33,861 bases of DNA from a bacterium (lineage in GTDB: Bacteria > Myxococcota_A > Bradymonadia > UBA7976 > UBA1532), in assembly GCA_030426945.1 (NCBI GenBank), contig JAUHXL010000023.1, forward strand, positions 1 to 33,861, in the 5' to 3' direction. The position numbers were made by a program, and so were the translations under genes. How positions within the stretch are numbered: the stretch's first letter is position 1; the number at the start of each line of letters is the position of its first letter. This document shows, piece after piece, positions 5,873-25,316 of the stretch. The notes below the pieces were generated by a model. That model was given only the letters and a program-made list of their open reading frames with translations, was not told the origin of the DNA and did not search any database.

Positions 5873-6870
5873 ACGCCGCAGCGCTGCTCCAACGACTCGA
5901 CCGGCTGGGGCCGACTCGCGCCGCGCTGCTGGGCGCGACCGTCGGCGCAGGCGTCGGCGGCCCATTGCTCCTGGCCGACACACCCGCCCTGCGATTCGCT
6001 GGCTGCGGCGCCCTGCTCGGTGTGGGCGCCGCGCTGGCGCTGCGCCAGCGCTGGGTCGACCGGGAGGTCACTGACCAGGCCGCCCATGCGCCGGGCGCCC
6101 CACCGCGCCGCGACCCTCGCGACCTGCTGGACATGGTGTGGGTTCCCAGCGGCACGTTCATGATGGGGTCGGACGAATCCGATCCCGACGCCCGGTCCAA
6201 CGAGAAACCTCGGTTCGAAGCACACGTTCGACAGCCTCTCTGGGTTCAGCGCGTCCCGGTCACCAACGCGGACTACCGCCGCTTCAACGCCGACCACGCA
6301 CCAGGAGAGCCCGGCAACCTACCGGCCAGCGATGTGTCGTGGCTCGACGCCGTGCGCTTCTGCAACGACGCCTCGCAGGCGACGGGTTTCGCGCCGGCCT
6401 ACGAGGTGCGCGGCGATGTGATCCGTTGGCTGCCGACCGACGGCTACCGACTGCTGACGGAGATCGAGTGGGAGTACGCCTGTCGCGCCCACAGTCAGGC
6501 ACGACTCAGCTTCGGCGATGATCCGTCACAGCTCGGGTGGTACGGCTGGTACGACGAGAACAGCGGAGGCCGCAAACGGCCCGTGGGCGCACTCAGACCC
6601 AATGCGTTCGGGCTGTACGACCTGCACGGCAATGTCTGGGAATGGGTCTGGGGCCAGCCGTACAAGTACCCGCTCGACCGACGAACTGGCAGGGTCACCG
6701 AGATGAGCACCCGGATGGGTTCGCCTGTGTTGCGGGGGGGCGCCTTCGACCGCGAGGCCAGGGACCTGCGCGCCGCGAGCCGGGACTGGGACGAGCCAGA
6801 GCGCCGGTTCTCGTTCGTCGGCTTCCGGTGTGCGCGTGGCGCGCGCCCCGAGCCGTCCGTTGCCCCTTGA
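5869..6870 (+). CDS. Membrane-anchored FGE-sulfatase/SUMF1-fold protein carrying candidate DGR variable region VR1
   Basis: Hydrophobic N-terminal segments, then MVWVPSGTFMMGSDES...NVWEWVW...VLRGGAF...VGFRCARGA; ATGA overlap with the protease gene. Confidence 0.88.
   Translation: MNAAALLQRLDRLGPTRAALLGATVGAGVGGPLLLADTPALRFAGCGALLGVGAALALRQRWVDREVTDQAAHAPGAPPRRDPRDLLDMVWVPSGTFMMGSDESDPDARSNEKPRFEAHVRQPLWVQRVPVTNADYRRFNADHAPGEPGNLPASDVSWLDAVRFCNDASQATGFAPAYEVRGDVIRWLPTDGYRLLTEIEWEYACRAHSQARLSFGDDPSQLGWYGWYDENSGGRKRPVGALRPNAFGLYDLHGNVWEWVWGQPYKYPLDRRTGRVTEMSTRMGSPVLRGGAFDREARDLRAASRDWDEPERRFSFVGFRCARGARPEPSVAP
6726..6853 (+). repeat. Candidate DGR variable repeat VR1
   Basis: 128 bp, ungapped alignment to VR2 (7603-7730, opposite strand); 16 differences confined to 6751-6815, flanks identical. 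Confidence 0.9.
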
Positions 6871-6974
6871 TGGGCTTCCCCTTGCAGCGGGGTCGCGTCA
6901 TTTGGCGACACGATGTCGACATGTCGCCAAGTCGTCACATGACCACCCAACCGCGGTAGGACGCCATCGTTCGA

Positions 6975-7472
6975 TCAAGCGCCTCGGGCCCGCGCGGCCG
7001 GCGCGCCGTCCAGGTAGAGCGCCACCACCGCCCGGCTGGCTGCGTCGCGCGCGTCGTGGTAGGCGGCCGACTTCAGATCCCGCTCGAACCAGTGACAGCC
7101 CGTGCCCAGATGTTCCAGGCTGCAGCGCAGCAGGGCCGTCGCGGCGTGGCCCGCGTCGAGCTCGGTGACGCACCTTGCGAGCAGCGGCTGGGCGATCTGA
7201 TAGGCCTTCATGTCGGTCAGCGAGTAGCGTCGGCGCCCGTCGACGTGTGCGTCGCCGCTGACCTTGGTCGCCTCGGCGTCGATGCGCGCCGCGACGCGCT
7301 CGCGCGCGGCCGTCTGGCCCTCGCTCAGCCCGCCCGCGGGCACGTCGGCGAGGTCGATGAGCCACGCTTTGCCGGGCCGCTTCGCGCGCAGCTTGCCCTG
7401 CCTGATCATGTAGCGGATCTGCCGCTCGGACTTGCCCAGCCTTGCTGCGGCTTCGCTCACCGTCACCTGCAC
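6975..7472 (-). CDS. Excisionase/MerR-like HTH protein with C-terminal helical region; possible Avd-like accessory factor
   Basis: MQVTVSEAAARLGKSERQIRYMIRQGKLRAKRPGKAWLIDLADV (HTH), then helix-rich KAYQIAQPLLARCV...SLEHLGTGCHWF...ARDAASRAVVALYLDG. Confidence 0.7.
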   Translation of the reverse strand: MQVTVSEAAARLGKSERQIRYMIRQGKLRAKRPGKAWLIDLADVPAGGLSEGQTAARERVAARIDAEATKVSGDAHVDGRRRYSLTDMKAYQIAQPLLARCVTELDAGHAATALLRCSLEHLGTGCHWFERDLKSAAYHDARDAASRAVVALYLDGAPAARARGA

Positions 7473-7564
7473 GCTCTCACCGCCCCCTTCTGACTCGAAG
7501 GCCGCTCGTCTCGTCGCCGACAGGGTGTCGACACTTCAGGCCGCTTGTCGACAATTCCGCGCGA

Positions 7565-7579
7565 CCCCGCTTCGCGGGG
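7565..7579 (-). other. Hairpin downstream of VR2
   Basis: - strand CCCCGC-GAA-GCGGGG, perfect 6-bp stem, 23 bp past the VR2 3' end. The VR1 counterpart at 6878-6892 is CCCC-TTGCAGC-GGGG, 24 bp past VR1. Confidence 0.6.
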
Positions 7580-7585
7580 AACCCC

Positions 7586-10500
7586 TCAACGATCAACGGG
7601 CTGCTCGGGGCGCGCGCCACGCGCACACCGGAAGCCGACGTCCGAGTCCCGGCTCCCGGGGACGTCCCCGTCCCGGTCCGCGGCGCGCAGGTCCCCGGCC
7701 CCGTCGTCGAAGGCGCCCCCCCGCAACACACGCCGGGAGCACGCAGACCTGTCGACAAGCGGGTCTTTGTCGACATCTTGTCGATACGCCTCTAGGTCGT
7801 AGCAGTCCGCGATCCACTCATAGATGTTGCCGGCTTGGTCCTGCGTTCCAAATGGGCCGGCCCCCGCGGGTCGGCTGCCCACGGGCTCCGGCGTGCTCCG
7901 CTCGCCGGCAGTTTCCGAGAACACCGCGAGCTTGCTCGTCGGCGCTTCATTGCCCCACGGAAACACGCGACCATCGGTGCCCCGCGCCGCGTACTCCCAC
8001 TCGGCCTCGGTGGGCAGGCGACCGCCGACCGAGGCGCAGTAGGCTTGCGCTTCCGCCCATGAGACGTTGCTTGCCGGCCAGGTCTCGGTCTCGCCCGGTG
8101 CATGGTCTTCGACCTTCTTACGGTACTGCGCGTTGGTGACCTCGAACTTGCCCATCCAGAACTCCGAGATGGAGATGGTCTTGACCGGTCGCTCGTCCGA
8201 AGAGCCGTCCACCGAGCCGCGCTCGAACTGTCCGGCGCACACGCGCACGTAGGTCACGCCATCGAACTCGCGCTCTTGGTATGGACACCAATCGATGCCG
8301 GCGGGGCGCAGGGTGACGGGCGCACCCACCACCGCGACAGCGTCGGGCCACACCTCGGTGACCTCGACCGGCTCGGCGTCGAAGGTCTGGTCGGCGCGCG
8401 GCAGATGATCGATGGGCACCCAAGCGGTCGTCACGTCGAATCGCTCGGTCAACACCCGCGCTGAGCTGAACCCGATCACCTGGTCGTCCGGGTCGGCGTG
8501 CCCGAGCGCCTCGGACAGAAGGTCGTTGTAGCTGGGGAGTGCGAAGGGCTCATCGGCCATGAAGGCGACGTCAATCACGCCATGGTCGAGCAGGTTGCGC
8601 ACCTTGGCCAGCGCCTCGGCGTCGGTCGCCGGTCGCTCGACGAGCGCGATCATACGCGGCGGCCAGTCGGGGTCCGCCGGACGCACCGGATCGGGCCGTT
8701 GGCCGCACCGAACGACGCTGTACCCGTCGGCGCGCTCGAGGCAAGGCAGCTCCCGATCACGGACACCGGTGAGGCGGGCGCCGGCGCCCGCCCAGACACG
8801 CTCCGCGTGCCGCGCGTCGCCCGCGAGCACGTTCCACTGTCCCTTCGCTCGAATCCACACGCTTCTGCACACCGGCAGCGTCTCGTCACAACGGGGCGCG
8901 CCGCTGGGCGGCGTCTCCTCGGCCGCGAGCAGTCCGGTCATCGCGACCAGCGCCACGGCCGCGGCCAGCCCGGCCGCCGCCCAGTAGCGGCTGGCCGGTC
9001 GCAGCGTGACGGCCTCCAAGGTCGCGAACGCGCGCGCCAGGCCGGCCTCGCGCAGCAGCCGGCGGACGTCCGGCTCGGCGTCCTCCCAGCGCCAGGGCAG
9101 GACGAAGGCGTCGGGCGGCGCCGGCTGGCTCGCGAACTGCGGGCTGGTGTGGTGCAACCGCTCGGCCACGTCCGCCGAGAGCTGGTCTCGAAGCGCCGCC
9201 AGCGTGGCGGCCGCTTCGGCGAGCGTCGGCCCCGGGCCGTCCCACAACTGCACGAGGGCCAGCTCGGCGCGTCGGTTGGCCGTGTCCACCGGGTGCGCCT
9301 GCTTCTCGTCGAGCAGGGCGCCCCAGCGGGCGCGCCAGAAATCGAGCGCGCGCCGGAAGAGGCTGTTCTCACCGCTCTCCACCCGCTGCAGCCGCGCCAC
9401 GCGCTCGCGGGCGTCGGGCAACGACCAGCGCAGCCCCGTTCCGGCCGCAGCATCGGCCGTGAGCGCCGGCAGGGCCCAGGCGTCGGCGCGCAGCCCGCCG
9501 GCCGCCAGCGCATCGCGCAGCTGCAGCGCGGTGGCGTCGTCGACCGGCTCTGGGCACAACGCGCAGGCGCCCGCCCAGAGCGAGACATCATCGGCGACGT
9601 ATCGAACCCGGGAAGACTCTCCGCCCAACCAGGCGGCGAGCGATGCGGGCGCCAGGTGACGCACATCGTGCGGGGCCAGCACCCCCTCGAGTCCGTGTTC
9701 GCCCTCCGAGAAGTCGGCGAAGGCCAGCGCCGGCCACCGGGCCAGTCGCTGCAGCAGACGCCGAAGGGCTGGCCCGGTCCGCTGATTGCGCGCCCGCGCC
9801 GCGAGCCACTTCCCGTCCGTGAGGATCGCGACGCGCGCGAAGTCGCGATGGCCGTCCACCTCGGACGGTCGAAAGCGACCCCGCGAAGGGCTGAACAGCC
9901 AGTTCGGCGCGCCGCTGAAGCGGGCCAGCTCGACGGGCAGACCCGCGCCCACCAGCGCGCGGCGAATCTCTTCTCCCAGGCGCTCGATCTCCGGGTGGCC
10001 CCGCGCCGCCAGATCGTCGATCCACAGCCACACCTGCCGCGCGTGTCGCTGGCGCTGCATGATGGGCGACGGCATACCACCTGCGCGGCAGGTCGCTTCC
10101 ACGCTGGCCGGCAGGTCGATCTGGTCGGTCGGCAGCTCGCCCACGAAGTGGTCGATTCCCCAGACCAGCGTCTCTCGACTGGCGCCCAACAGACGATCGA
10201 CGGGGCGCGGGTCGGGCGGCGCCGCCAACGGGGCCGGGGCGGGATCCTCGGGCCGCCGGGGGTTCGAGATGGGCAGGGGCGGTGGTCGGCGCGTCGCGCG
10301 CCAGACCGAGTAGCCCAGGACACCGAGGGCGCTAAGCAGAAGGCCGAGATCCCAGCCCCGGCTGGGTGGGGTGGGCTGCCCTGGCGTGACCACGATCCGC
10401 AGGCCACGGAACGTACCAGGTGGGGGTGGTGGAGGTGGCGTGAACTCATCGCCCTTATGCTGGTCCTTCACGATGACCGGATCGACGGGCGCTGGCCGAG

Positions 10501-10852
10501 GCGCCACGGCCACGGCCACACCGATGGCCGCCACGACGACGGCCAGCCACACGAGGTGCCGCCAGGGGACGGGCGGCTTCTCCCGTGGCGGACGCGAGCC
10601 ACCGTCCCCCCATGGCACCACGATCGGCTCTTGGACGGGCGGAGGCGACCACTGCGCGAACGCCTCGTCGAATCGACGAACATCCTCCTTCGACTTGACC
10701 AGCAGCGCGGCCAGGAGGTCGTGCAGTTGCTCTCGGGTCACCGCGTCGGCGCTGCAGACGACGGCCTCGACGCGCAGGCGTTCGCGCGTACCGACGTCGA
10801 TGCCCGCAGCGCGAAGCCGGGCGTACAGGCCCTCGAGGCCGCGGGTGTCCAT
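7586..10852 (-). CDS. CoxE/vWA-like N-terminus, TM segments and C-terminal FGE-sulfatase-fold domain with candidate DGR variable region VR2
   Basis: N-terminal LHDLLAALLVKSKEDVRRFDEAFAQW; hydrophobic segments; Rossmann-like QVWLWIDDLAARG...RVAILTDGKWL; C-terminal RGSVDGSSDERPVK...WPASNVSWAEAQAYC...EWEYAARGTDGRVFPWGN...VLRGGAF...VGFRCARGA. Confidence 0.85.
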   Translation of the reverse strand: MDTRGLEGLYARLRAAGIDVGTRERLRVEAVVCSADAVTREQLHDLLAALLVKSKEDVRRFDEAFAQWSPPPVQEPIVVPWGDGGSRPPREKPPVPWRHLVWLAVVVAAIGVAVAVAPRPAPVDPVIVKDQHKGDEFTPPPPPPPGTFRGLRIVVTPGQPTPPSRGWDLGLLLSALGVLGYSVWRATRRPPPLPISNPRRPEDPAPAPLAAPPDPRPVDRLLGASRETLVWGIDHFVGELPTDQIDLPASVEATCRAGGMPSPIMQRQRHARQVWLWIDDLAARGHPEIERLGEEIRRALVGAGLPVELARFSGAPNWLFSPSRGRFRPSEVDGHRDFARVAILTDGKWLAARARNQRTGPALRRLLQRLARWPALAFADFSEGEHGLEGVLAPHDVRHLAPASLAAWLGGESSRVRYVADDVSLWAGACALCPEPVDDATALQLRDALAAGGLRADAWALPALTADAAAGTGLRWSLPDARERVARLQRVESGENSLFRRALDFWRARWGALLDEKQAHPVDTANRRAELALVQLWDGPGPTLAEAAATLAALRDQLSADVAERLHHTSPQFASQPAPPDAFVLPWRWEDAEPDVRRLLREAGLARAFATLEAVTLRPASRYWAAAGLAAAVALVAMTGLLAAEETPPSGAPRCDETLPVCRSVWIRAKGQWNVLAGDARHAERVWAGAGARLTGVRDRELPCLERADGYSVVRCGQRPDPVRPADPDWPPRMIALVERPATDAEALAKVRNLLDHGVIDVAFMADEPFALPSYNDLLSEALGHADPDDQVIGFSSARVLTERFDVTTAWVPIDHLPRADQTFDAEPVEVTEVWPDAVAVVGAPVTLRPAGIDWCPYQEREFDGVTYVRVCAGQFERGSVDGSSDERPVKTISISEFWMGKFEVTNAQYRKKVEDHAPGETETWPASNVSWAEAQAYCASVGGRLPTEAEWEYAARGTDGRVFPWGNEAPTSKLAVFSETAGERSTPEPVGSRPAGAGPFGTQDQAGNIYEWIADCYDLEAYRQDVDKDPLVDRSACSRRVLRGGAFDDGAGDLRAADRDGDVPGSRDSDVGFRCARGARPEQPVDR
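7603..7730 (-). repeat. Candidate DGR variable repeat VR2
   Basis: Reverse complement aligns over all 128 bp with VR1, no gaps. Confidence 0.9.
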
Positions 10853-11811
10853 CAGCGCTGGAGGGCGCTCAGGTCGTCACTGTCCTTGATCAACACCGAC
10901 AGCGCCTCCAGCTTGGCCAGGTCGGGCTGCCGTACCTTGGCGTGCGCGTCGGCGCCCATCCAGTTCAGCACGGAGAACCACAACAGCAGCTCGCTGGTCG
11001 TGGGCTTCTTGCGCAGGTTCGTGAGCTTCCGGATGTCGTGGAAGCGCGCCAGGCCCGCCTCGAGGGTCGCCTTGTCCAGCTTGGGGAAGTGCCCGGCCTT
11101 CCGGTGTGCCTCGACGACGGCCCCCACCAGATCCTCGTCCAGCTTGATGTGATGGAAGATGCAGCGCCGGAGGAACGGCGCCGGCAGCTGACGCTCCGAG
11201 TTGCTGGTGATGATGATCGGCGGGGGTGAGGACGGCGCCGCGACCCTGTACTCCGGCCCGTTGGGCTCCTCACGCTCCGGTACGCGGAACCACCCCTGGT
11301 CCAGGACGTTCAGCAGGTCGTTGGGAAAGTCGCGCGGCGCCTTGTCCACCTCGTCGATCAAGACGATGGCCTTGCCCTGCGCCGCGTAGGCGCGCCACAG
11401 CGGGCCCGGCGTCACGCAGGCCGCGCGGCTGGTGGACTCCTTCTCGCGGAAGTAGCGGACGGCGTCGAAGTCGTAGAGCAGGTCGCGCCACGTGCTGGTC
11501 GAGCGGACGTGCAGCGCGTGCACGGCCTGGGCCCACCCGGGCCGGCCGTCCTCGCCTGGCTCGTCTGCACCCAGCTGGAAGTACCAGGCCAGGTGGTAGG
11601 CCACCAACGTCTTGCCCGTCCCGGGCTCCCCGGTCAGCAGCAGCGGCGCACGCACGGCCAACGCCACGTTGATCGCGGCGAGCAGCTTCGAGTCAGCGTG
11701 GAAGTAGGGCGCCGCCTCCCAGTGCTTGGGGTTCGCTTTCAGCGCCTCGCGGTTCGCCAACAGGCTCGCGTCACCTCTCGCAGGGTGAGCCTCGACACGG
11801 TTCAAGGACAT
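10852..11811 (-). CDS. MoxR-like AAA+ ATPase
   Basis: Walker A GEPGTGKT, Walker B VLIDEVDKA, sensor IITSNSERQLPAPFLRRC; overlaps the downstream gene start (ATGA). Confidence 0.88.
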   Translation of the reverse strand: MSLNRVEAHPARGDASLLANREALKANPKHWEAAPYFHADSKLLAAINVALAVRAPLLLTGEPGTGKTLVAYHLAWYFQLGADEPGEDGRPGWAQAVHALHVRSTSTWRDLLYDFDAVRYFREKESTSRAACVTPGPLWRAYAAQGKAIVLIDEVDKAPRDFPNDLLNVLDQGWFRVPEREEPNGPEYRVAAPSSPPPIIITSNSERQLPAPFLRRCIFHHIKLDEDLVGAVVEAHRKAGHFPKLDKATLEAGLARFHDIRKLTNLRKKPTTSELLLWFSVLNWMGADAHAKVRQPDLAKLEALSVLIKDSDDLSALQR

Positions 11812-11825
11812 GCTTCTCGCCTCGC

Positions 11826-13790
11826 CTACAGCTCTTCGTCGGGATCGTGCCCGTCGTCGTCGGGATCGCCAAGAAAGCGCCGCCAGCCCATCGCTTCGGC
11901 CGCTTCGATGGCCTTGATCAGGCAGCGGTAGTTGGCGCGGCCGGACGGCGTCTCGTTCACGCCGGCGCACTGCTCGAACAGCGCACGGGTCGCGCTGCGG
12001 ATCAGTCCTCGTGGACAGCCCGTCGCGCCGCGAGTCGACATGAAGTCGGCCAGCTCCTTCAACGTGACGTGCTCCAGCACGCCCAGCGAGGTCGCGTCCA
12101 CGCCCCGATCGGGCGCGTCGAGGAACCAGTCCGTGACGATCTTCTCGATGCGAAGCGGCTGCCTGGTCTCGGTCGTCAGGTAGGCGATGACCCGTACATC
12201 GTGATCGGCGCTCGGCTCGATCAGGACGCTGCACATGTCCAGCCACGCCGTCAGGCGCTTCGGCGTCAGCGATGCGCCGCTCGAGCCGCCCAAGCGCCCG
12301 AAGTCCAGCCACACCAGGGCAGACTGCCCCGGATCGGGCGTGGGACACGCTACGCGAAGGAAGTCCGCCAACGCGCCGCCCTTCGTCGCACCCAAGACTC
12401 GCCGAATCGCGTCCTCGAAGGCCCCCGGAAGGTCATCCGTTCCGGACGGGAAGGTCACCTCGTAGGGGTTGAAGACGAGGGTATCGCAGCGCTCCTCGAC
12501 GAGATCCTCGCGGAGCAGAGTGCTCAGGAGGTCGGGCCGCGCATCCGGATCTTCGGGCGCAATGCCGACGACCGCCATCACGCGCGCGTCCGACTTGATG
12601 AAGTTGTCCACCCGGGTGCGGAAGTGCGCGCGCTGATTGAAGCGGTCCAGTCGATGCGACACGGGCGACGAGAACACGCGGGTGCGCTCCGCTGGACGCC
12701 GCCGGAACTCCCACTTGTCGTAGCGCGTGTGCGCCGCATAGGTCCAGGCGTGGTGGTCGTCGGTCGCGACAGCCGATGCGTAGGTGTGGACCGCCTGGAC
12801 GGGCGACAGCTCGTGGAGCACGATGCCCACCAGCCATTGGGTCACGAGGTCCAGTGCCGCGGCGGTGTCCAGCCGGGTGAGTCCGGTCACGACGGCGGGC
12901 ACCTGCGCTGCCAACAGGCGACCCAGGCCGACCGCGCCGCCACCGCCGCTCCAGCAGCCAACCGACAGGAAGCACTGGACCGAGTTCGGCAGGGCCAGGC
13001 ACAGCGCCTTGGCGTCGAGGCTCTCATCCCCGAAGTCGAGCACCGGCACCCCGCGCCGAATGCGGGCGTGCCCGACGAACACGACGACGTGGGGCAACCA
13101 GTCGCTGGCGGCCCGGCCGACCTCCGACGCGTCTCGAACCACCTTGAAGAACGCGGAGGACGCGTAGCAGGCGTCGTCCTGCTCCAGTCGACTCTGCAGA
13201 TCGCCAGCGAAGCGCGTCGGCGCCCCCCCATTGGGTGCGATCAGCAGCACCTTCGCCGGCTGCGGCAGACGGCCCGTTTCGTCACCCAGGCGCTCGCTAC
13301 TGTGCTCGAACGTCCAACGGTTCTGGGCGCTGGCGAGGTGGGCGTCGCAGAACGGACATGACGTCAGCGACCAGGGGAGCGACAGCAGCACGTCGGCCGC
13401 CTCGGTGTCGACGTCGGGCGCCGAACGATGCACGAGGATCCGGAGCCGCACCGGCAGGCGCTCGGCATGGACCTGTTCCGCCGTGCTGCCGGCCAACGCC
13501 TTGAACGTCTGGTTCGCCGCGCTCGGATCGGGGAACAGCAGCGCCGCCAGCAAAGGCCCGACCTCGACCTGGTTGCGCCCGGCCAGCGCCCCCCGGAGAG
13601 CGTCGCTCTCGCCCTGCGAGAGCGTCCGCGCCAAGGCGCGCAGCGCGTCGGTCAACGTGGCCGCGTGCTTCGGCTGCGTAGCGAGCAGCCGACCGCGCTG
13701 CAGGTACTCGACCTCGATGCTCTTGGCCCGAGGTGTCAGCCGAACGGTCAGCTCCGGCTGCACGACGTTCTTCCACGGATGATGCTGCAT
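11826..13790 (-). CDS. CHAT (caspase-like) protease with C-terminal degenerate NTPase-like region
   Basis: LPWSL, KVLLIAPNGG, VVVFVGHA (His), CFLSVGCWSG (Cys), VPAVVTGLTRL; then VMAVVGIAPEDPDARPDLLSTLLRE without a canonical Walker A. Confidence 0.8.
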   Translation of the reverse strand: MQHHPWKNVVQPELTVRLTPRAKSIEVEYLQRGRLLATQPKHAATLTDALRALARTLSQGESDALRGALAGRNQVEVGPLLAALLFPDPSAANQTFKALAGSTAEQVHAERLPVRLRILVHRSAPDVDTEAADVLLSLPWSLTSCPFCDAHLASAQNRWTFEHSSERLGDETGRLPQPAKVLLIAPNGGAPTRFAGDLQSRLEQDDACYASSAFFKVVRDASEVGRAASDWLPHVVVFVGHARIRRGVPVLDFGDESLDAKALCLALPNSVQCFLSVGCWSGGGGAVGLGRLLAAQVPAVVTGLTRLDTAAALDLVTQWLVGIVLHELSPVQAVHTYASAVATDDHHAWTYAAHTRYDKWEFRRRPAERTRVFSSPVSHRLDRFNQRAHFRTRVDNFIKSDARVMAVVGIAPEDPDARPDLLSTLLREDLVEERCDTLVFNPYEVTFPSGTDDLPGAFEDAIRRVLGATKGGALADFLRVACPTPDPGQSALVWLDFGRLGGSSGASLTPKRLTAWLDMCSVLIEPSADHDVRVIAYLTTETRQPLRIEKIVTDWFLDAPDRGVDATSLGVLEHVTLKELADFMSTRGATGCPRGLIRSATRALFEQCAGVNETPSGRANYRCLIKAIEAAEAMGWRRFLGDPDDDGHDPDEEL

Positions 13791-13863
13791 GCCCGTCCCT
13801 GGCCCCTGGCTTTGTCGGCGCGGCCAGCTTAACTTCGGCCTCCCCAGGGTGGAAGGGCCCCAT

Positions 13864-16530
13864 GTGAAGTACCTCATCGCGAGCGATCTGCACCTCGGCA
13901 ACGGTGGCCGCTACGACATCTTCGCCGGCGCCGACGCGTTGCCGGCGTTGTTGGCCGAGGTGGCGCCGCAGCACCTCATTGTCAACGGCGACGGGTTCGA
14001 CTTCCTGCTGGACGACGAGCCGATCGACCAGCTCGTCGTCGGGCGCGCCGTGCGCCAGGCGGAGGCGATCGCCGAGCACAATGCGGACGTCCTGGCGGCC
14101 TGGGGACGCTGTCCGAAGGTGACGATTCGTCTCGGCAACCACGACGTAGAGCTTGCGGTGCCGCGCGTTCAGGCCGTGTTCGCCGCGGCAATTCAGAGGG
14201 GCGGCGACGCCGAGGTCGCCTTCGAGCTGGGCGACGCGGTGTCGCCGATAGTGGTCCGTGGGGCGCGCATCCTCGTGACGCACGGCGAGCACGACGACGT
14301 CGCCAATCGCATCCAGTATCAGCGCCTTCGCGGTGCGCACACCGCAGATGCGCCGGAGGGCACGCGCGGATCGGCGCGCCCGTTCCGGTACCCGCCCGGC
14401 TCCCATCTGGTGAAGGACGGCCTGAACTGGGTCAAGAGCGAGCTCGGCGCACGGTTCGCCGACCTGGCCAAGCCGGACTTCCAAGGTGGGGCGCTGGCGA
14501 CCGCCTTCCTGTGGCCGGAGCAGACGGCCGCCAAGCTGCGCGCGCTGTTCCCTTCGCTGGCGGCTCGCTACGTCCGCGCGTGGGCGACCACGCCCCGGCC
14601 GTTCGACGAGGGCGACGGCCTCGATGTCGACGCGAACGACGATCTCGACGCGATCGCCGGCGCCGCGGCGCTGGAGATGTACGCGCGCGCTCACCAGTTC
14701 ATCGCGGGCGAGGCGGCCGAGCGCTTCCTCTCGTTCGAGGCCACGAACGCCGAGCGCCGCGAGGCGAAGCGGCTGCTGCGGAAGTTCGACTGCGACGCGG
14801 TCGTGATGGGCCACTCGCACGCGGCCCGATTCTTGGCCGAGCCAGGCCTCACATACCTGAACTCGGGCACCTGGATTCCGTTGGTGCAGATGCCGCCCGC
14901 GGACGCGCCGCGCGCGGAGTGGCAGGTGTTCCTGCAGCGGCTTCGGTCGGACCCACAGATGACCGGCGAAGCGCAACGGTACCTCACCACCCGCTTCACG
15001 GCCGTGGCGGTCGACGAGGCCCCGTTGGGGGCGCGGCTGTCGCTCGTCGAGTGGCTAGATGGCGCGCTGCTCACCCACGACTCGACCGAGGTGTCGCGGC
15101 AGCGTGCGCCGGCCTTTCACGCTCCGCGACGAGAGGCCGACCCTGGCACCTACACCCCGCTGCTTGCCGACCCCGAGGGCGCCCCGTTCGCGGACATGGG
15201 CCTTCCGCTTCCGAGGCAGTTTGGCGTGGACGCGGTGCCGGAACCAGACGATCCCCGCAACAAGCTTCTCGGACCTGGCACGGACGCCAATGACGTCGGT
15301 GCAGCGCATTGGGGCCTTATCGTACCGGCCGATCGACGCGCTGCGTTCGAGGAGGCCTTGCAGCCGCTGCTGGCGTTGCGTGCGTCCCAGATGGGCGTGG
15401 CCCCGAAGGTCTTCGAGGTCGCCCCCGGCGACGCGCACGACGCCAAATCGGCGCTGCGGTGGGTCGAGGCGGAATACACGTCCATCGACTGGGAGGAGCG
15501 CCCCGAGTACCTGCTCATCGCGGGCGATCTGCACGAGGTGCCTCACGCGCTGCACAAGGCGCTGTCGACGCAGGCGATGGTCGGTCGCATCGCGTTCACC
15601 CGGCCTGACGCAGCACGCACGCCCTGGTTGGCGGGCTACGGCGCCTACGCTTCGAAGGTGGCGACCTACGCGACACGGACGAGACGCGATGGCGCCGAGC
15701 TGCTCTACTTCGGCGTCGAAGACGGCACGGCCGCCACCCGAACCGGAACCCGCACGCTGCTGGATCCGTCGTACGACCGCTTCGCCGGGCGGGTGAGAGA
15801 GCGGCCACACCGGTTCTCCGCCGTGCATCGAATCGAGGGCGATGGTCTCGGAGCGCCCTGTCCCGAGGATCTGCTCGACCACCCGGCCGTGCACGGACGA
15901 AACCTCCTCGTCACGCTCAGCCACGGCGTCGGCTTCACCAACGCCTCGAGCGAGCGCTTCGCGCAGCAGGGCGCGATGAGCTTCGGCTACGAGCGCCTCA
16001 CCGCCAGCGACCTCGAAGCATCCACGTTCCTCCCGGGCGGCCTGTGGGTCTACATCGCCTGCTTCGGTGCCGGTACGCCGACCGACAGCGACTACCAGAC
16101 GTGGCTGGACAAGCTCGACGCAACCGGCCGCGGTGGTCGGGCAGTGCTGCAGACGCTGAGCGAGACGCCGTTCGTCGCGGCGCTTCCGCAAGCCGCCCTG
16201 GCCAACCCGAACGGCCCTCTCGGTGTCGTCGGCCACATCGATCTGGCGTGGACATCCGCCATGCAAGACCGCACCGTGCCCGACAGCCCCCTCGCGGGCC
16301 ACGCCCGGTACGACGCGCTGCTGGAGCAACAGGAACGGGTGGGCCACTACGCGCCGAGGACCTTCGGCCTCTCCCTACGCGCGCTCGACCACGGCGTGCG
16401 CCGCATGAACGACCGGCTGGTCGACGACGTGCGGCAGGGGCGTCCCTACGAGAATCCGAACCTCTGGCTGGCGCACGAGGATCTTCGGAACTACGTACTG
16501 TTGGGGGATCCGGCGGCTCGGTTGGGGTAG
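13864..16530 (+). CDS. Calcineurin-like metallophosphoesterase fused to a C-terminal caspase-like/CHAT-like peptidase domain
   Basis: GTG start. MPE motifs SDLHLGN, NGDGFDF, GNHDVE, THGEHDD, GHSHA; C-terminal LLVTLSHGVGF (His), VYIACFGAGTP (Cys), DLRNYVLLGDPAARL. Confidence 0.8.
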   Translation: MKYLIASDLHLGNGGRYDIFAGADALPALLAEVAPQHLIVNGDGFDFLLDDEPIDQLVVGRAVRQAEAIAEHNADVLAAWGRCPKVTIRLGNHDVELAVPRVQAVFAAAIQRGGDAEVAFELGDAVSPIVVRGARILVTHGEHDDVANRIQYQRLRGAHTADAPEGTRGSARPFRYPPGSHLVKDGLNWVKSELGARFADLAKPDFQGGALATAFLWPEQTAAKLRALFPSLAARYVRAWATTPRPFDEGDGLDVDANDDLDAIAGAAALEMYARAHQFIAGEAAERFLSFEATNAERREAKRLLRKFDCDAVVMGHSHAARFLAEPGLTYLNSGTWIPLVQMPPADAPRAEWQVFLQRLRSDPQMTGEAQRYLTTRFTAVAVDEAPLGARLSLVEWLDGALLTHDSTEVSRQRAPAFHAPRREADPGTYTPLLADPEGAPFADMGLPLPRQFGVDAVPEPDDPRNKLLGPGTDANDVGAAHWGLIVPADRRAAFEEALQPLLALRASQMGVAPKVFEVAPGDAHDAKSALRWVEAEYTSIDWEERPEYLLIAGDLHEVPHALHKALSTQAMVGRIAFTRPDAARTPWLAGYGAYASKVATYATRTRRDGAELLYFGVEDGTAATRTGTRTLLDPSYDRFAGRVRERPHRFSAVHRIEGDGLGAPCPEDLLDHPAVHGRNLLVTLSHGVGFTNASSERFAQQGAMSFGYERLTASDLEASTFLPGGLWVYIACFGAGTPTDSDYQTWLDKLDATGRGGRAVLQTLSETPFVAALPQAALANPNGPLGVVGHIDLAWTSAMQDRTVPDSPLAGHARYDALLEQQERVGHYAPRTFGLSLRALDHGVRRMNDRLVDDVRQGRPYENPNLWLAHEDLRNYVLLGDPAARLG

Positions 16531-16760: not shown

Positions 16761-18404
16761 ATGATCGTCCCACCCACGGTGTCCTACCCCGGTGTCTACG
16801 TCCTCGAGGCCGACGGCCCGAGCCCGCCCATCCCGGGCGTCCCCACGGCGGTGACGGCGTTCGTCGGACGCGCAGCCCGAGGGCCAGTGGGCGCGCCGGT
16901 CGTCGTGACCAACTTCGGCCAGTTCCAGCGGTGGTTCGGCGGCTTGGACGGCGAGGACACCGTGGCGTACGCCGTGCGGGACTTCTTCGACGCGGGGGGC
17001 GAGCAGGCGGTGATGCTGCGGCTGTTCCCGGGCGAGGGGGGCGCGGCGACGTTGCAGGTGACGCGGCGGGCGCCTTGGCTGGGCGGCGACGCGGGCGACG
17101 TGCTGTTCGGGCTGGCGGCGGCCTCGCCGGGCACCTGGGCGAACACGCTGCGGGCCTGGATCGACTTCGAGGGGCTCGACGACGCCGTGGCGGCGAGGTT
17201 CGCCGGCGCGGGGCTGCGGGCCGAGCACCTGTTCAACCTGCACCTGGCGCTGATGGGGCCGGATGCGCAGCCGAGCGAGCAGGAGACCCATCGCGGCGTC
17301 ACCCTGGTCGGGGGCACGCCCCAGTCGCTCGACGGGGTGCTCGCCAACGGGTCCCTGTTGGCACGGTGGCCGCGGGGCGCGGCGATGAAGGACGCCACGA
17401 CCGGCGTGGTGGCGCGCACGGGTGAAGACGGCGCGGCGGTGCAGCCGGGCGGCGCCGTCACCGCGGCGACGGCGGGGCGTGACGCGGGGCCGTTGTCGGT
17501 GGAGGACTACGTCGGCGGCGGCGCGGGCGGGGCCTTCGCCGCGCTGAACCACGCGGTCGACGTGAACCTCATCTGCGTCCCGCCCGATCAGCGCGGCGGC
17601 GACACGCCGGCGGCCGTGTACACCGCGGCCGTCGAGTACGCGCGGACGCGCCGAGCGTTCGTCATCGTCGACGCGCCCGCGCAGTGGGACCGCGACGCCG
17701 AGGCCGGCGACCTTGCCGCGCTCGATCCAGCCGCGCTGGGCGTGAGCGGCCTCCCCGGGCGCTCGGCCGCGGTGTACGTCCCCCGGGTGCGTCGGCCGGA
17801 CCCGGCGCGGGGCGGCGCCCCCGACACCTTCCCGGTGTCCGGCCTGATCGCGGGCATCTACGCTCGGAACGACGCCGCGCGCGGCGTTTGGACCGCCCCG
17901 GCCGGCATGCAGGCGACGCTCCCGGGCGACGCGACGCTCGCGGTGACGCTGTCCGACGCCGCCAACGGCGAGCTGAACATCAAAGGCTTCAACTGCCTGC
18001 GCACCTTCCCGGCCAGCGGCCCGGTCGTCTGGGGCAGCCGAACGCTCGCCGGCGCCGACGCGCTAGGCGACGATTACGCCTACGTGCCCGTTCGGCGCCT
18101 GGCGCTCTGCATCGAAGAGAGCCTGCAGCGCGGTACGCAGTGGGCCGTGTTCGAGGCCAACGACGAGACGCTCTGGGCGACGCTCCGGCGGCAGGTCACC
18201 GAGTTCCTGACCGCCCTGTTCCAGCAGGGCGCCTTCCAGGGCGCGTCCGCGAGGGACGCCTTCCTCGTGCAGTGCGACGCCACCACCACGACGCAGGCCG
18301 ACATCGACGCCGGCCTCGTCAACCTCGTCATCGGCTTCGCGCCCCTGAAGCCCGCCGAGTTCGTCATCCTGTACCTGCAGATGCGCGCGGGCCAAGCCGG
18401 CTGA
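16761..18404 (+). CDS. Contractile tail sheath protein (phage/eCIS-like), orphan
   Basis: PTVSYPGVYVLEADG...; C-terminal GPVVWGSRTLAG...YVPVRRLALCIEESLQRGTQWAVFEANDETLW...PAEFVILYLQM; AGGGAG upstream of ATG. Confidence 0.88.
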   Translation: MIVPPTVSYPGVYVLEADGPSPPIPGVPTAVTAFVGRAARGPVGAPVVVTNFGQFQRWFGGLDGEDTVAYAVRDFFDAGGEQAVMLRLFPGEGGAATLQVTRRAPWLGGDAGDVLFGLAAASPGTWANTLRAWIDFEGLDDAVAARFAGAGLRAEHLFNLHLALMGPDAQPSEQETHRGVTLVGGTPQSLDGVLANGSLLARWPRGAAMKDATTGVVARTGEDGAAVQPGGAVTAATAGRDAGPLSVEDYVGGGAGGAFAALNHAVDVNLICVPPDQRGGDTPAAVYTAAVEYARTRRAFVIVDAPAQWDRDAEAGDLAALDPAALGVSGLPGRSAAVYVPRVRRPDPARGGAPDTFPVSGLIAGIYARNDAARGVWTAPAGMQATLPGDATLAVTLSDAANGELNIKGFNCLRTFPASGPVVWGSRTLAGADALGDDYAYVPVRRLALCIEESLQRGTQWAVFEANDETLWATLRRQVTEFLTALFQQGAFQGASARDAFLVQCDATTTTQADIDAGLVNLVIGFAPLKPAEFVILYLQMRAGQAG

Positions 18405-19541: not shown

Positions 19542-21053
19542 TCAGAAGGCATACATCAACACCTGCTTCACCTCCCACGCCGCGTCCGTATCGGTCGTGT
19601 TCCCGTTGATCAGCAGGGCGCTCGCGTCGCCGGGCAGGAAGTAGCCGAACAGCACGACGTACTTCAGGCCGGGCAGGATGGTCAGCTTCAGGTTGACGTC
19701 GATCTCCTGTCCGATGTCCTTCGAGGTCTGGCCCGTCGGGGTGCCGGTCGCGTCGAAGCCGTGCACGTCCTCGGTGGCGCGCAGGAAGGTGTAGCTGGCT
19801 TCGAGGCGCAGGGGCTTCCAGGGCACGACGCCGACGCCGAGCTGGGCGGCCGTCGTGTTCTCGAGCTCGCGGTAGCCGCGCGACGCGGGGCTGCCCAGGC
19901 CCTGGGGGCTGATGCCGCCGACGTCGGGCATGACGCTGTCCTCCCACACGTTGGTCAGCGGCCAGTAGCCCGCGGTCTGGATGCGGTTCAGGTTGCCCTT
20001 GCCGCTGGTCGGGTCGTCATCGCCGCTGCCCAGTCCCACCAGCAGCGTCAGGTCGAAGGGCACGCCCACGTCGAGCGCCTGCGTCGCCTTCACCAGCGCG
20101 TTGAAGCCGGCCAGGTCGCCGTCGTTGCGGTCGAGCAGGCCGCCGGCGTGGTCGGCGTTGTCGACGTCGTCCTTGCCGAACAGGTAATCGAACTCGGCCA
20201 GCCAGGTGAGCCCCTTGGCCACGTCCACCTTGCCGGTCGCGGTGATGCCCAGCGCGACGGCCTGGCTCACCTGGGGCTGGAAGCGGCTGTAGGCGTAGCC
20301 CAGGCCCTGAGGCAGGTGGGCGCCCGGGAAGCGATCCGGATCGATGTGGTCCTTGTAGAACAGGCCGAACAGCTCGGCGCTGTAGTCTCCCTGCTTGAAC
20401 CGCAGTTTGCCGCCGAACAGGTCGGCGTCGGCCCACTGATCGTCGTCGTTCATCAGCAGGCCGCGCGGGCCCTTGATGGCGTTCTGGCCCTCGGCCACCT
20501 TGGCCCAGAAGGCGTCGACCGCGAAACGCTCCCCCAGCCGCGCGGTCACGAGCAGCGCGTCCTGATCGCCGTCGAGCACGAGCTGGTTGCCGGCGGCGAG
20601 GGGCTGGCGACCGACCTGCAGTCGGAGGGGTGCCCAGGGCAGCTCGGCGTACAAGTATGCGTGGTCGACGTGGACCGGATAGTTCGTGTCCTTGTCCCCG
20701 AACATCGCGTCGGCGTTGTAGCCGGTGGCCGTGGTGCCGTCGGGCGCGACCGTGGTGGGCACGTTGGGACTGTTGTCGGTGCCCCACCAGCCCTGCCCGA
20801 CGTCGGCGCGCACCACGCCGCCCACCTTCGGCGTGCCCATCGTCAGGTTCAGGCGCACGTTCTGGACGATGTAGTCGGCCTCGTTCAGCGGCACGTCCTT
20901 CCCGAGGAAGAAGTTGCGCTGGGTCAGGCCCCAGATGGACACGGCCCCGTGCAGGTCGATGGCGAAGGCGTCCTTCTCCTCGGCGTCCTGAGCGTTGGCC
21001 AGCATCGGCGCGCACAGCGCCGCCGTCAGCGTCGCGATGATCGCTCGCAACAC
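19542..21053 (-). CDS. Outer-membrane beta-barrel (porin/alginate-export-like) protein
   Basis: GTG start after GGAGG; signal LRAIIATLTAALCAPMLANA; alternating strands, terminal F (VKQVLMYAF). Confidence 0.75.
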   Translation of the reverse strand: MLRAIIATLTAALCAPMLANAQDAEEKDAFAIDLHGAVSIWGLTQRNFFLGKDVPLNEADYIVQNVRLNLTMGTPKVGGVVRADVGQGWWGTDNSPNVPTTVAPDGTTATGYNADAMFGDKDTNYPVHVDHAYLYAELPWAPLRLQVGRQPLAAGNQLVLDGDQDALLVTARLGERFAVDAFWAKVAEGQNAIKGPRGLLMNDDDQWADADLFGGKLRFKQGDYSAELFGLFYKDHIDPDRFPGAHLPQGLGYAYSRFQPQVSQAVALGITATGKVDVAKGLTWLAEFDYLFGKDDVDNADHAGGLLDRNDGDLAGFNALVKATQALDVGVPFDLTLLVGLGSGDDDPTSGKGNLNRIQTAGYWPLTNVWEDSVMPDVGGISPQGLGSPASRGYRELENTTAAQLGVGVVPWKPLRLEASYTFLRATEDVHGFDATGTPTGQTSKDIGQEIDVNLKLTILPGLKYVVLFGYFLPGDASALLINGNTTDTDAAWEVKQVLMYAF

Positions 21054-21119
21054 GGTGTCCTCCAGTCGTTCACGGTCGGTCACAGACGCTCCGCGGCGTC
21101 TGCGCGGTCGGTTCTCGAG

Positions 21120-21617
21120 TCAGCTCGCCGGCGCGCGGGCGTCCGCCAGGGCGCACAGGCGGTGGTAGTAGTCTTCCTGGTCCAGGCCCAAGAGCGTCGC
21201 GCCGAACACTTCGGCGTCGTCGGCCGTGGGCATGCGTCCGTAGTTCACCGAGGGCAGGTGGTAGGCCACCATCAGCGGCACGTCGGCGGCGTCGGCGACC
21301 AGGCTGGCCGCCACCACGACACGGAACGCCGTCTCGTCACCCGCGTCCCGCTCGACCACCGCGAACAGTCCCGGCGGCACCGCCGCGTCGTCGAACACCA
21401 CCCGCGTGGGGAAGCGTACGCAGTCACGGTCGGCCAGCAGCGCCTCGAGCGAGGCCAGGTCGGGGAACGGTCCGTGCCGCCCCCGCCCCGCCTGCGCCCG
21501 CGCCACCAGGTGGTCGCGCAGCGCCGAGCGTCCGGCCGCTTTCAGCCCGCGGTACTTGCCGCGGGTCTCACCCGCCGCGTCGACCAACGCATCGCTCTGG
21601 GTGCCTGCGTCGCTCAC
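21120..21617 (-). CDS. Hypothetical protein in the cytochrome operon
   Basis: GTGA overlap with the upstream octaheme gene; MSDAGTQSDALV...LLGLDQEDYYHRLCALA. Confidence 0.65.
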   Translation of the reverse strand: MSDAGTQSDALVDAAGETRGKYRGLKAAGRSALRDHLVARAQAGRGRHGPFPDLASLEALLADRDCVRFPTRVVFDDAAVPPGLFAVVERDAGDETAFRVVVAASLVADAADVPLMVAYHLPSVNYGRMPTADDAEVFGATLLGLDQEDYYHRLCALADARAPAS

Positions 21618-23089
21618 TGGTACCGCGCCTTGAACTCGGCCTGCCGCTTCGCGCGCTCGGCCTTCTCTTCGGCCGGCATCTTGTCGAGGTACCAACGGTG
21701 GTTCGGGTGGTTCAGCACCTCGTCCAGCTTGGCCTCCAGCGCCGCCGCGGCCCGCTTCTTCGCCGCGTCGCTGCTGCCCTTGCCGCGCTCGACCAGCTCG
21801 TACAGCTCGGGGATGAACTCGCTGTAGAAGTTGCGCGCCACCTCGTAGGTGCCGTGCCAGTGCGTGATGTCGGGCCCCATCATCGACGCGCCGTGGCGCG
21901 CGCGCCGGCCCTCGTGGTGCCAGATCTCGAACCACGTGAAGTCGACCTTCTCGGCGAACTGCGGCGCGCGCTTCAGCGGCTTCGCCAACTCCATGAGCGC
22001 CAGGCCGGGCTTCGCGAACTTCTCGTGGTACAGGTCGATGAGCGCGTCGTACTGCGTGTAGAAGCCATCGATGAAGGGCTGGTTGTGGCAGTTGCTGCAC
22101 ACGTCCTCCATCGCCTTGCGCCGCTGCTGCCAAGGCACCTTCGCGCCGGGCAGCCCCAGCTTCGCGTCGGCCACCTCGGGGCGCACGCTGATCGCGGGGC
22201 GGTTGTTCCAGCTGATGCGCAGACCCACGTCGTGCGACACGGGCTGGTTGGGCGTCGCGCTCATGTGGCAGGTGGCGCAGGTGGGCGCGGCGGAGTAATC
22301 CTCGCCCACCACCCACTTCGGGCTGTCGAGCGCCATCTTGTCGACGTTGGCGCGGAACGCGATGCCGTGCTTCGACTCGTTGTAGATCTCGATCTGCGGG
22401 TGGTCGGGCCCCATGTGGCACTTGCCGCAGGTGTCGGGCTGGCGCGCCACCTCGAGGCTGAACTCGTGGCGCGAGTGACACGCCGTGCAGCTGCCCTCGC
22501 TGCCATCGGGGTTCACGCGACCGATGCCGGTGTTGGGCCAGGTGGCCGGATCCAGCCGGCCGTCCTTCAGCACCTTCACCTCGGTGCCGTGGCACTGCCA
22601 GCAGCCATTCACCGCCGCGGCCGAGTTGCCGCCGGGGAAGCCCGGCGTCACGAAGCCGCGGTTGCCCTCGACCACCTCGGCCAGGACGTTGTCCGCCGAG
22701 CCCAGGATGTGTCCGGCCTTGGCGTGCCGGCTCTTCGAGAACTCCTCGACCTCGCGCTCGTGGCAGCGCCCACAGTCGCGGGGCGACACGATGACCGCGA
22801 TCACCTCGCCCTCGTGCTTGAACGCGTCGGGGTCGCCGGGCTTGGCGAGGTGACACTCATAGCAGCCCACGTTCCCGCGGTAGTGCTTCGACTTGCCCCA
22901 CTGCTCGTACAGCGCGGGCGTCTTGTCCTTGTGGCAGTCGACGCACTTCTGACTCTTCGCCGACAGCCGGCCGGGGAAGGTGCCGGCCGTGGTGTCGGTG
23001 GGCGTGAACAGCGCGAGGCCGCCCGCGACCAGCCCGACGGTCAGGGGGACGGCGGCCAGGACCGGCCAGCGGGGCGACTGCGTCTTCAT
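21614..23089 (-). CDS. Octaheme c-type cytochrome, hydroxylamine oxidoreductase (HAO)-like family
   Basis: Eight CxxCH (CVDCH, CYECH, CGRCH, CWQCH, CTACH, CGKCH, CATCH, CSNCH); PNTGIGRVNPDGSEGSCTACHSRHEFS and ISWNNRP. Alternative start 23107. Confidence 0.85.
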   Translation of the reverse strand: MKTQSPRWPVLAAVPLTVGLVAGGLALFTPTDTTAGTFPGRLSAKSQKCVDCHKDKTPALYEQWGKSKHYRGNVGCYECHLAKPGDPDAFKHEGEVIAVIVSPRDCGRCHEREVEEFSKSRHAKAGHILGSADNVLAEVVEGNRGFVTPGFPGGNSAAAVNGCWQCHGTEVKVLKDGRLDPATWPNTGIGRVNPDGSEGSCTACHSRHEFSLEVARQPDTCGKCHMGPDHPQIEIYNESKHGIAFRANVDKMALDSPKWVVGEDYSAAPTCATCHMSATPNQPVSHDVGLRISWNNRPAISVRPEVADAKLGLPGAKVPWQQRRKAMEDVCSNCHNQPFIDGFYTQYDALIDLYHEKFAKPGLALMELAKPLKRAPQFAEKVDFTWFEIWHHEGRRARHGASMMGPDITHWHGTYEVARNFYSEFIPELYELVERGKGSSDAAKKRAAAALEAKLDEVLNHPNHRWYLDKMPAEEKAERAKRQAEFKARYQ

Positions 23090-23103
23090 CTCGGTTGCTC
23101 CCT

Positions 23104-24357
23104 TCATGGGGTCGTCTCGCCAGCGGGGGGCGACACGGGCGGCGCGGCGCGGCGCATCGTGCCCAGCACCACCGGCACGGCCACGCGCAGCATCAGCGTG
23201 TAGAGCAGGGCGCCGAAGGCCCAGATGCCCATCGACACCAGGGTCTCGTTCAGCGTAGGCGCGTACTCGACCACCTCGCCCAGCGGGCTGGGCACGAAGC
23301 CGGGCACGATGAGTCCCATGCCCTTCTCGACCCAGATGCCGACGATCGCGAGCACGCAGGCCAGGTTCAGCCAGCGGAGCGTTCGTGTCTTGGGGCTCAT
23401 CAGCAGGACGGTGGCCACCAGGTTCATCGCGATGGCCAGCCAGATCCAGGGCACCAGCTTGCCGGCGCCGCCCAGCCCGAAGAACAGATAATGCGCGGCG
23501 GCCACGTGGCGGCTGTCGGTGTAGAACTCGGTGAACACCTCGGCGCCGAGCAGGAACAGGTTGATCAGCATCGCCACGGTGATGATGCGGCGCAGCAGCA
23601 TCAGCGCCTCGTCGCGCACGTCGAAGCCCCACAGGCGCCGCACGAGCTGCAGCGTGATGACGATGAGTCCGGGCCCGGCGGCGAAGGCCGAGGCGAGGAA
23701 GCGCGGCGCCACGATGGCCGAGTTCCAGAAGGGACGCCCGCCCAGGCCGACGTAGAGGAAGGCGGTGACGGTGTGAATGCTCACCGCCCAGCCGATCGAC
23801 AGGAACACGAAGGGCAGGTACCAGCGCGGGTTGGGCTTCTCACCCTTCCACCGCGTGTAGATCAGATAGCCCGCCACGTGCGCGTTGAGCACCAGATAGC
23901 CGTTCAGCGCGATGACGTCCCAGGCCAGCATCGAGATGGGCCAGTTGAAGCGGCCGAGGAGCGGGATCATGTGCCAGAAGCGATCGGGGCGGCCGAGATC
24001 GACGGTCACGAACAGCAGGCACATCACCAGCGCCGCGACGGCCAGCAGCTCGCCCAGGAGCACCACCTGGTGCACCGCCTCGTTCTTGTAGATGTAGGCC
24101 GGGATGACCAGCATCACCGCGGCCGCGGCGATGCCCACCAGGTAGGTGAAGTTGGCGATGTAGGCGCCCCACGACACCTGATCGCTCATGCCGGTGACGC
24201 TCAGGCCGCCCACGACCTGGCGGGCATAAGCGTTCAGGCCCACCAGCACCACGAGGGTGAGGAAGGTCATCCACGCGTAGTAGCGCCAGCTGCCCTGGAA
24301 GGCGCGGCGAACGCTCCGGGCGAGGAAGGTGAGGTAGTCGTGGAGCTCCGCGGCCAT
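23104..24357 (-). CDS. NrfD/polysulfide-reductase-family membrane subunit
   Basis: Multiple hydrophobic segments; LVTVDLGRPDRFWHM-type motif; next to a FeS subunit gene. Confidence 0.85.
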   Translation of the reverse strand: MAAELHDYLTFLARSVRRAFQGSWRYYAWMTFLTLVVLVGLNAYARQVVGGLSVTGMSDQVSWGAYIANFTYLVGIAAAAVMLVIPAYIYKNEAVHQVVLLGELLAVAALVMCLLFVTVDLGRPDRFWHMIPLLGRFNWPISMLAWDVIALNGYLVLNAHVAGYLIYTRWKGEKPNPRWYLPFVFLSIGWAVSIHTVTAFLYVGLGGRPFWNSAIVAPRFLASAFAAGPGLIVITLQLVRRLWGFDVRDEALMLLRRIITVAMLINLFLLGAEVFTEFYTDSRHVAAAHYLFFGLGGAGKLVPWIWLAIAMNLVATVLLMSPKTRTLRWLNLACVLAIVGIWVEKGMGLIVPGFVPSPLGEVVEYAPTLNETLVSMGIWAFGALLYTLMLRVAVPVVLGTMRRAAPPVSPPAGETTP

Positions 24358-24368
24358 CGTGACCCGCC

Positions 24369-25316
24369 TCAGGCGTCGAAGTAGTAGAAGAAGTTGGGGA
24401 GGGTGCCGACATCCTCCTTCAGCACGAAAACCCGCTTGTTTTCGAGGATGTAGCGAATCTCACTCTTCGGGTCGTAGACATTGCCGAAGGCGCGCGCGCC
24501 GGTCGGACAGGCCTCGAGGCAGGCCGGGTAGCGCCCCTCGCGCACGCGGTGCAGACAGAAGGTGCACTTCTCCATCACGCCCACCGGCCGCGGCCGGTTG
24601 CTCAGGTAGGCCGTGTCGGTGTTCATGTCGGCCGGGTTCAGCACCGGCTTCTCGAAGTTGAAGCGCCGCGCCCAGTAGGGGCAGGCGGCCTCGCAGTAGC
24701 GGCACCCGATGCACCAGTTGTAGTCGACGACGACGATGCCGTCGGGCTCTTTCCAGGTGGCGTTGACCGGGCACACCTTGGTGCAGGGCGGCTTGTCGCA
24801 CTGGTGGCACTGCACGGGCATGTAGAACTTGCCCGGCTGCGGCACGGTCTCGGGGTCGTACTGGTGGTTGGCGGTCTCGAGGTCGATGCCGCCCTGCTCC
24901 ATCTCGAGCACCCGGATGTACTGCTTGCCGGGCGCGCGCGAGGTGTTGTTCTCCTTCTCGCAGGCGTAGGCGCAGCGGCGGCAGCCGACGCACACGCCCA
25001 GGTTCAGGGCGTAGGCGTACTTCGTCTTGGCCTTCGGCTTGACGTCGCGCACCGTCACGTCGACGCCGTACTCGGCCTTGGCCTCGTCCTCGAGGCGCGC
25101 GAGCACCTTGTCCATCTCGGCGGGCGTCAGCTCGTGATAGTGCTTCTGCAGCCACGCCTCCTTGTCGAAGGTGGCGTCCAGTTCGCGCAGGGGCGCGAGC
25201 GACGCGGCCACGGCGCCCACGCCGGCGGTCGTCACGGCGGCCGCCTTCAGGAAGTTGCGGCGCGTGGTCCCCTCCTCGGGGTCCAGCAGCGGACCGTTGG
25301 GGGCGTCCTGACTCAT
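24369..25316 (-). CDS. Tat-exported 4Fe-4S ferredoxin subunit (NrfC/DsrO/TtrB type)
   Basis: TRRNFLKAAAVTT Tat signal; CVGCRRCAYACEKEN, CHQCDKPPCTKVCP, CIGCRYCEAACPYWARRF, CTFCLHR. Confidence 0.9.
   Translation of the reverse strand: MSQDAPNGPLLDPEEGTTRRNFLKAAAVTTAGVGAVAASLAPLRELDATFDKEAWLQKHYHELTPAEMDKVLARLEDEAKAEYGVDVTVRDVKPKAKTKYAYALNLGVCVGCRRCAYACEKENNTSRAPGKQYIRVLEMEQGGIDLETANHQYDPETVPQPGKFYMPVQCHQCDKPPCTKVCPVNATWKEPDGIVVVDYNWCIGCRYCEAACPYWARRFNFEKPVLNPADMNTDTAYLSNRPRPVGVMEKCTFCLHRVREGRYPACLEACPTGARAFGNVYDPKSEIRYILENKRVFVLKEDVGTLPNFFYYFDA

Follow-up and report, generated by a model that had tools for sequence, protein, structure and literature searches.

A metallophosphoesterase fused to a C25-like protease, beside a divergent CHAT gene, in a Bradymonadia genome

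The 13864–16530 gene and its two enzyme halves

The DNA analyzed in this study (the window) is a stretch of 33,861 nucleotides, contig JAUHXL010000023.1 of the Bradymonadia assembly GCA_030426945.1. An open reading frame on its forward strand, at positions 13864–16530, starts with GTG and encodes a protein of 888 residues. We preferred the GTG at 13864 to an in-frame ATG at 13789 because the homologs in our alignment begin at the same SDLHLG motif. By codon-position GC, the whole gene reads as a single coding frame, with no shift where the two halves of the protein meet. The AlphaFold2 model of the protein had a mean pLDDT of 81.

The N-terminal half, residues 1–415 (13864..15108, + strand), was assigned as a metallophosphoesterase (MPE) based on Pfam, Foldseek and conserved motifs. 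Both PF00149 Metallophos (E 2.6e-7) and PF12850 Metallophos_2 (E 1.3e-6) passed their cut-offs, and all five motifs of the set reported in the initial annotation were present (SDLHLG from residue 7, NGD from 41, GNHD from 91, HGE from 140 and GHSH from 316). This combination of a Pfam match above cut-off with the DxH, GDxxD, GNHD, H and GHxH motifs is that of a calcineurin-type enzyme, and the metal motifs were conserved among relatives in a 14-row alignment. A PDB sequence search with the MPE found no solved relative. Foldseek matched its modeled fold to LpxH (5b4c, E 4e-5), PolD DP1, Mre11 and other calcineurin-type enzymes. Together, the sequence and the model identify residues 1–415 as a predicted calcineurin-type MPE with an LpxH/PolD-DP1/Mre11-like fold.

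The window MPE shares its fold and metal motifs with LpxH and other calcineurin-type phosphoesterases, but differs from them in a long helical insert that separates HGE from GHSH, the fourth and fifth motifs, and within which lies a conserved block, PGSxLVK...NPLK...KPDFxG. LpxH also carries a helical cap. Residues 236–265 of the insert (14569..14658, + strand) were modeled with pLDDT <50, and their disorder is a pLDDT reading only; this stretch may represent a gating or cleavage loop.

A second low-confidence region (pLDDT <50), residues 414–457 (15103..15234, + strand), forms a putatively disordered linker between the MPE and the protease. The peptidase region spans residues 421–888 (15124..16527, + strand), with the C25 domain at residues ~460–888, and was recognized by Foldseek and by the Pfam matches of its relatives. 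Its best fold match was gingipain K (4rbm, E 3.4e-9, probability 1.00), with 6i9a also matched, and a PDB sequence search with this half returned weak gingipain matches only. The candidate catalytic residues, His687 (15922..15924, + strand; SHGxG, here SHGVG) and Cys733 (16060..16062, + strand; ACxxGTP, here ACFGAG), correspond to H267 and C313 of an alignment of 82 sequences, in which both were invariant down to ~25% identity. Peptidase_C25 (PF01364) was matched at E<=0.1 by 77 of the 82 relatives (best E 8.7e-12), and the window protein itself scored 18.7–21.5 bits, under the 23-bit cut-off. The GDPAARL tail, also noted initially, aligned with the end of this Pfam family.

These data indicated that the C-terminal half is a C25-like (gingipain-fold) cysteine protease of clan CD, as predicted from its sequence and model. 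The initial annotation had described it as caspase/C25/CHAT-like, to be abandoned if the half proved to have a non-peptidase fold or poorly conserved key residues. The fold is that of a peptidase, the residues are conserved among homologs, and the caspase/C25-like part of the description stands; the CHAT-like part fits the divergent gene instead. Assignment of this half as CHAT was rejected, as CHAT was absent among the families matched by the 82 members and the best fold was gingipain. The likeness to gingipains R and K extends to the fold, the His/Cys dyad and a GDPxxRL C-terminal strand. The window protein differs from them in its MPE fusion, its score below the Pfam cut-off and its gene neighbors, which belong to conflict systems. 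Gingipain-type proteases are best known as secreted virulence proteases.

The suggestion that one chain carries two enzymes was supported: within one coherent frame, the 888-residue protein is predicted to hold a metal-dependent phosphoesterase followed by a protease of the caspase/gingipain type. Both enzymes are probably active, because the His and Cys are invariant in 82 sequences and the MPE motifs are conserved. No PADLOC model (0 families) and no NCBIfam entry matched the protein.

The divergent CHAT gene and its cassette

The MPE-C25 gene is separated by 73 bp (13791..13863) from a divergently transcribed gene, as had been noted initially. Shared control through this gap, as proposed in the initial annotation, is a possibility only: a promoter and terminator scan that included the gap found no promoter-like site and no terminator, though a similarly close divergent C25-like/CHAT arrangement recurs in L129. 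The divergent gene (11826..13790, - strand, ATG at 13790) encodes a protein of 654 residues with no Pfam match. Its His241 and Cys279 aligned invariantly with the CHAT neighbors of the relatives in two alignments (n=15 and n=17), and its model matched separase (5fc2, E 1.7e-6), SAVED-CHAT (8tl0, E 3.7e-6) and DdvA (8rot) in Foldseek. Based on these alignments and the model, the gene is predicted to encode a CHAT protein with a separase/SAVED-CHAT-like fold.

Following the CHAT gene on the same strand are genes for a MoxR-type AAA ATPase of about 319 residues (10852..11811; Pfam AAA_5, E 4e-10) and a vWA-like protein (7586..10852). The latter has a C-terminal FGE-sulfatase domain (residues 867–1078, Pfam E 6.7e-47), in addition to N-terminal CoxE-like helices, a vWA-like region and TM segments that were recognized by eye. 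This CHAT/MoxR/vWA-FGE cassette recurs in six other loci (L141–L146), one of which (L141, G000:C334:1-5516) lies in the window genome itself. The MoxR partner is 43–49% identical in the six loci, and homologs of the window CHAT protein were found among them. The order of first component, MoxR and vWA was kept in L141, L142, L144 and L146; an unmatched or weaker first gene precedes MoxR-vWA in L143 and L145. The C-terminal region of the window CHAT protein also recurs in other ternary loci (the L146 match spans residues 314–640) and, although the model is too poor there, this region is probably an iSTAND-like component.

The cassette resembles the iSTAND MoxR-vWA ternary systems (PMC7159879) in the order of a first component with a peptidase domain, MoxR and vWA, and in the FGS effector on the vWA protein, its TM segments and its CoxE-like N-terminus. 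It differs in that the inactive STAND of the window CHAT protein is only putative. The text of PMC7159879 makes no mention of C25 or CHAT. None of the six other CHAT-or-similar/MoxR/vWA cassettes adjoins an MPE-C25 gene, and we therefore regard that gene as a local addition to the window cassette.

Other genes surround these. A trypsin-like peptidase gene (5009–6870, + strand) adjoins the cassette and overlaps the start of a second FGE-sulfatase ORF. Downstream of the MPE-C25 gene, a phage/contractile tail sheath gene stands alone (16762–18404, + strand; PF04984, PF17482), and positions 19542–30913 hold a cluster for multiheme cytochrome, NrfD, Fe-S and molybdopterin oxidoreductase proteins that is unrelated to the MPE-C25 gene. 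We rejected the possibility that the fusion is cargo of a contractile injection system, as the related loci had no sheath match, with the caveat that the gene caller also missed the window's sheath gene. The location of the genome's two other sheath genes on a different contig (C51) also disfavored this possibility.

MPE–protease pairs and CHAT neighbors in Myxococcota

A search of 379 same-phylum genomes at E<1e-17 identified 11 MPE relatives, counting the window genome's own. A C25-like gene accompanies eight of these (own genome counted, and one, G267, inferred from contig ends). In six genomes (G175, G069, G265, G323, G352 and G108) the MPE and C25-like genes are separate neighbors, some pairs overlapping by a few bases, and in G267 the two lie at contig ends compatible with the same gene order. 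The MPEs of the remaining three genomes (G038, G200 and G248) are fused to an HEVGHD metallopeptidase-like region, and one adjoins a TIR-SLOG gene. This MPE subfamily was therefore always seen with a protease, although not always the same one.

The HEVGHD fusions lie at L048:10823-13960, L051:10289-14068 and L052:1-3290, and their HEVGHD region has no Pfam match. The TIR-SLOG gene is the one that follows the MPE-HEVGHD gene in L048, and an iSTAND-type cassette (L145) is found further along the same contig. The MPE gene of MAG.430 (L031/L088:890-2156) is split over two frames, indicating either decay or a sequencing error.

The fused MPE-C25 form was not found in a second genome among the 379 genomes of the phylum or the 57 of the class, and no relatives were identified in viral contigs. 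A survey of MPE-CHAT fusions had been proposed in the initial annotation; the fusion partner is C25 and the fusion was found in the window genome only, but split MPE/C25-like pairs do recur. Judging by its sequence, the protein joins head to tail the products of two genes that are normally separate neighbors in related Myxococcota.

A scan of named genomes identified 244 C25-like relatives, and 75 loci were kept. Nearly all are from Myxococcota, with several copies per genome, Sorangium cellulosum So ce26 having at least six. MPE genes were enriched near C25-like genes (p 1e-6, indicative only since related loci were counted as independent), and most C25-like genes have no MPE. On the C25-like tree, where the window sequence is on a long branch, MPE pairing required seven changes, at least five of them forced by supported branches; MPE pairing has therefore arisen or been lost repeatedly. 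Many stand-alone C25-like genes (e.g., L057:9974-11701) have a Pro-rich linker and, at the C-terminus, ~60 residues resembling a helix-turn-helix; both were recognized by eye and are absent from the window protein.

CHAT genes were also common beside the C25-like genes. Among the neighbors of 81 C25-like genes, CHAT occupied 46/304 positions at ±1–2 genes versus 0/228 at ±5–7 (Fisher p 2e-12, likewise indicative only with related loci treated as independent). The CHAT partners were of several kinds: CHAT-nSTAND1-WD40, zf-HC2-TPR-CHAT after an ECF-sigma-like gene, and SAVED-CHAT with a CD-NTase. In L084 the C25-like gene lies between TPR-CHAT on one side and SAVED-CHAT (PADLOC E 3e-115) and a CD-NTase (PADLOC E 3e-119) on the other, and a CD-NTase is also beside the C25-like relative of L106. 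In L129 the C25-like and CHAT genes have a close divergent arrangement, about 55 bp apart.

The full L084 operon (5461-14482) encodes an ECF-sigma-like protein, zf-HC2-TPR-CHAT, a 230-residue protein, the C25-like protease, SAVED-CHAT and a CD-NTase; it is a locus of CBASS type that combines three proteases with a sigma/anti-sigma-like pair. Similar operons are present in L110 and L121, and parts of it in L057, L104 and L106. In Sorangium cellulosum So ce26, a single ORF (L116:7226-11341) holds CHAT, nSTAND1 and C25-like regions.

A possible protease-controlled conflict system

We regard the MPE-C25 locus as a probable variation on the protease–hydrolase pairs of bacterial conflict systems. 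In the Hachiman and AVAST nuclease–protease pairs and in Canu (PMC12799240), hydrolase and protease genes likewise adjoin and are recurrently paired, and the Canu protease, like that of the window, belongs to the caspase superfamily. The hydrolase of those systems has an MBL fold, in contrast to the calcineurin-type MPE found here, and their protease is trypsin or MALT1-like rather than C25 and is not fused to it in a single chain. In Canu the caspase activates a gated pro-nuclease (PMC12799240). A second parallel is the type III CRISPR/CBASS cascade, a proteolytic one that is reported to be started by SAVED-CHAT (PMC11229360, citing Steens 2024); a CHAT protease adjoining another clan CD protease is a putative common feature, and the C25-like gene of L084 is flanked by SAVED-CHAT and a CD-NTase. 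The window differs in this respect, as tblastn with the L084 cyclase and SAVED genes found no match in it.

We tentatively favor, at somewhat less than even confidence, a conflict or programmed-cell-death locus in which CHAT is the initiator, the C25-like enzyme a second protease and the MPE the controlled payload. CHAT would be coupled to the MoxR-vWA ATPase module, respond to a trigger and activate the C25-like protease, either by cleavage or by binding. The C25-like protease would in turn free or activate the MPE by cutting the disordered insert (236–265) or the linker (414–457); our guess, from the model, is that these are the natural cut sites. The MPE would then hydrolyze a nucleic acid, nucleotide or lipid-pyrophosphate target, leading to cell arrest or death. 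The identity of the enzymes is strongly supported, and we infer the order of the steps, the MPE substrate and the role in immunity. Several points weigh against such a cascade: the fusion is known from one MAG, the CHAT/MoxR/vWA link to MPE-C25 is specific to the window locus, C25-like genes mostly lack an MPE, and the MPE need not be toxic because LpxH-like folds include lipid-metabolic enzymes.

The initial annotation had offered two readings, of which the first was a two-warhead effector. Both the protease and the MPE would then be effectors that the CHAT/MoxR system releases at once, with no regulation of one by the other, consistent with the conservation of both active sites and with the listing of calcineurin-like and caspase-like domains among the effectors of such systems (PMC7159879, PMC8195603). 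We consider this a rather unlikely possibility, as the strict pairing of the MPE subfamily with a protease, even the unrelated HEVGHD one, suggests coupling over a free mix, and the split pairs and neighboring CHAT genes better fit a partner under protease control. The second reading makes the MPE an off-switch: by degrading a nucleotide second messenger, it would shut down CHAT or the C25-like protease, which that messenger activates. In its favor, some MPEs are nucleotide phosphodiesterases, and C25-like genes are found in CBASS-type operons that also encode CD-NTase and SAVED-CHAT. It found no support and seems improbable, because MPE-bearing loci and SAVED/CD-NTase loci did not overlap among the loci tested; neither the L084 cyclase nor SAVED was matched in the window, and the nearest folds of the MPE are LpxH and nucleases.

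A role outside immunity would be regulated proteolysis with phospholipid or nucleotide turnover in myxobacterial housekeeping or development. The expansion of the family in multicellular myxobacteria such as So ce26, the LpxH-like fold of the MPE and the CHAT-like fold of the anti-sigma factor DdvA are all consistent with this, but CHAT-nSTAND1-WD40, SAVED-CHAT/CD-NTase and TIR-SLOG neighbors are typical of conflict systems, and we judge such a role to have little likelihood. An assembly error in an ordinary two-gene pair is a very unlikely source of the fusion. The fusion is known from a single MAG of 772 contigs, and every other MPE/C25-like pair is of separate genes, but the frame is coherent over the junction, with third-position GC of 0.75–0.85 and no shift, and the N-terminal residues of the C25-like protease continue in frame.

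Returning to the reading in which proteases control the MPE, it is possible, although doubtful, that these loci represent an undescribed two-enzyme immune module of multicellular bacteria, in which a C25-like protease under a CHAT initiator gates an MPE, with STAND, CBASS and MoxR-vWA sensors. The MPE would then be a novel type of payload among protease-activated pro-enzymes. The coexistence of split and fused versions makes the MPE/C25 coupling directly testable. If this speculation is correct, gingipain-type proteases would make up a large family that acts alongside CHAT proteases in social myxobacteria, in a bacterial pairing of initiator and second protease resembling that of animal caspases, and a phosphoesterase would join the short list of enzymes under the control of a partner protease in immunity.
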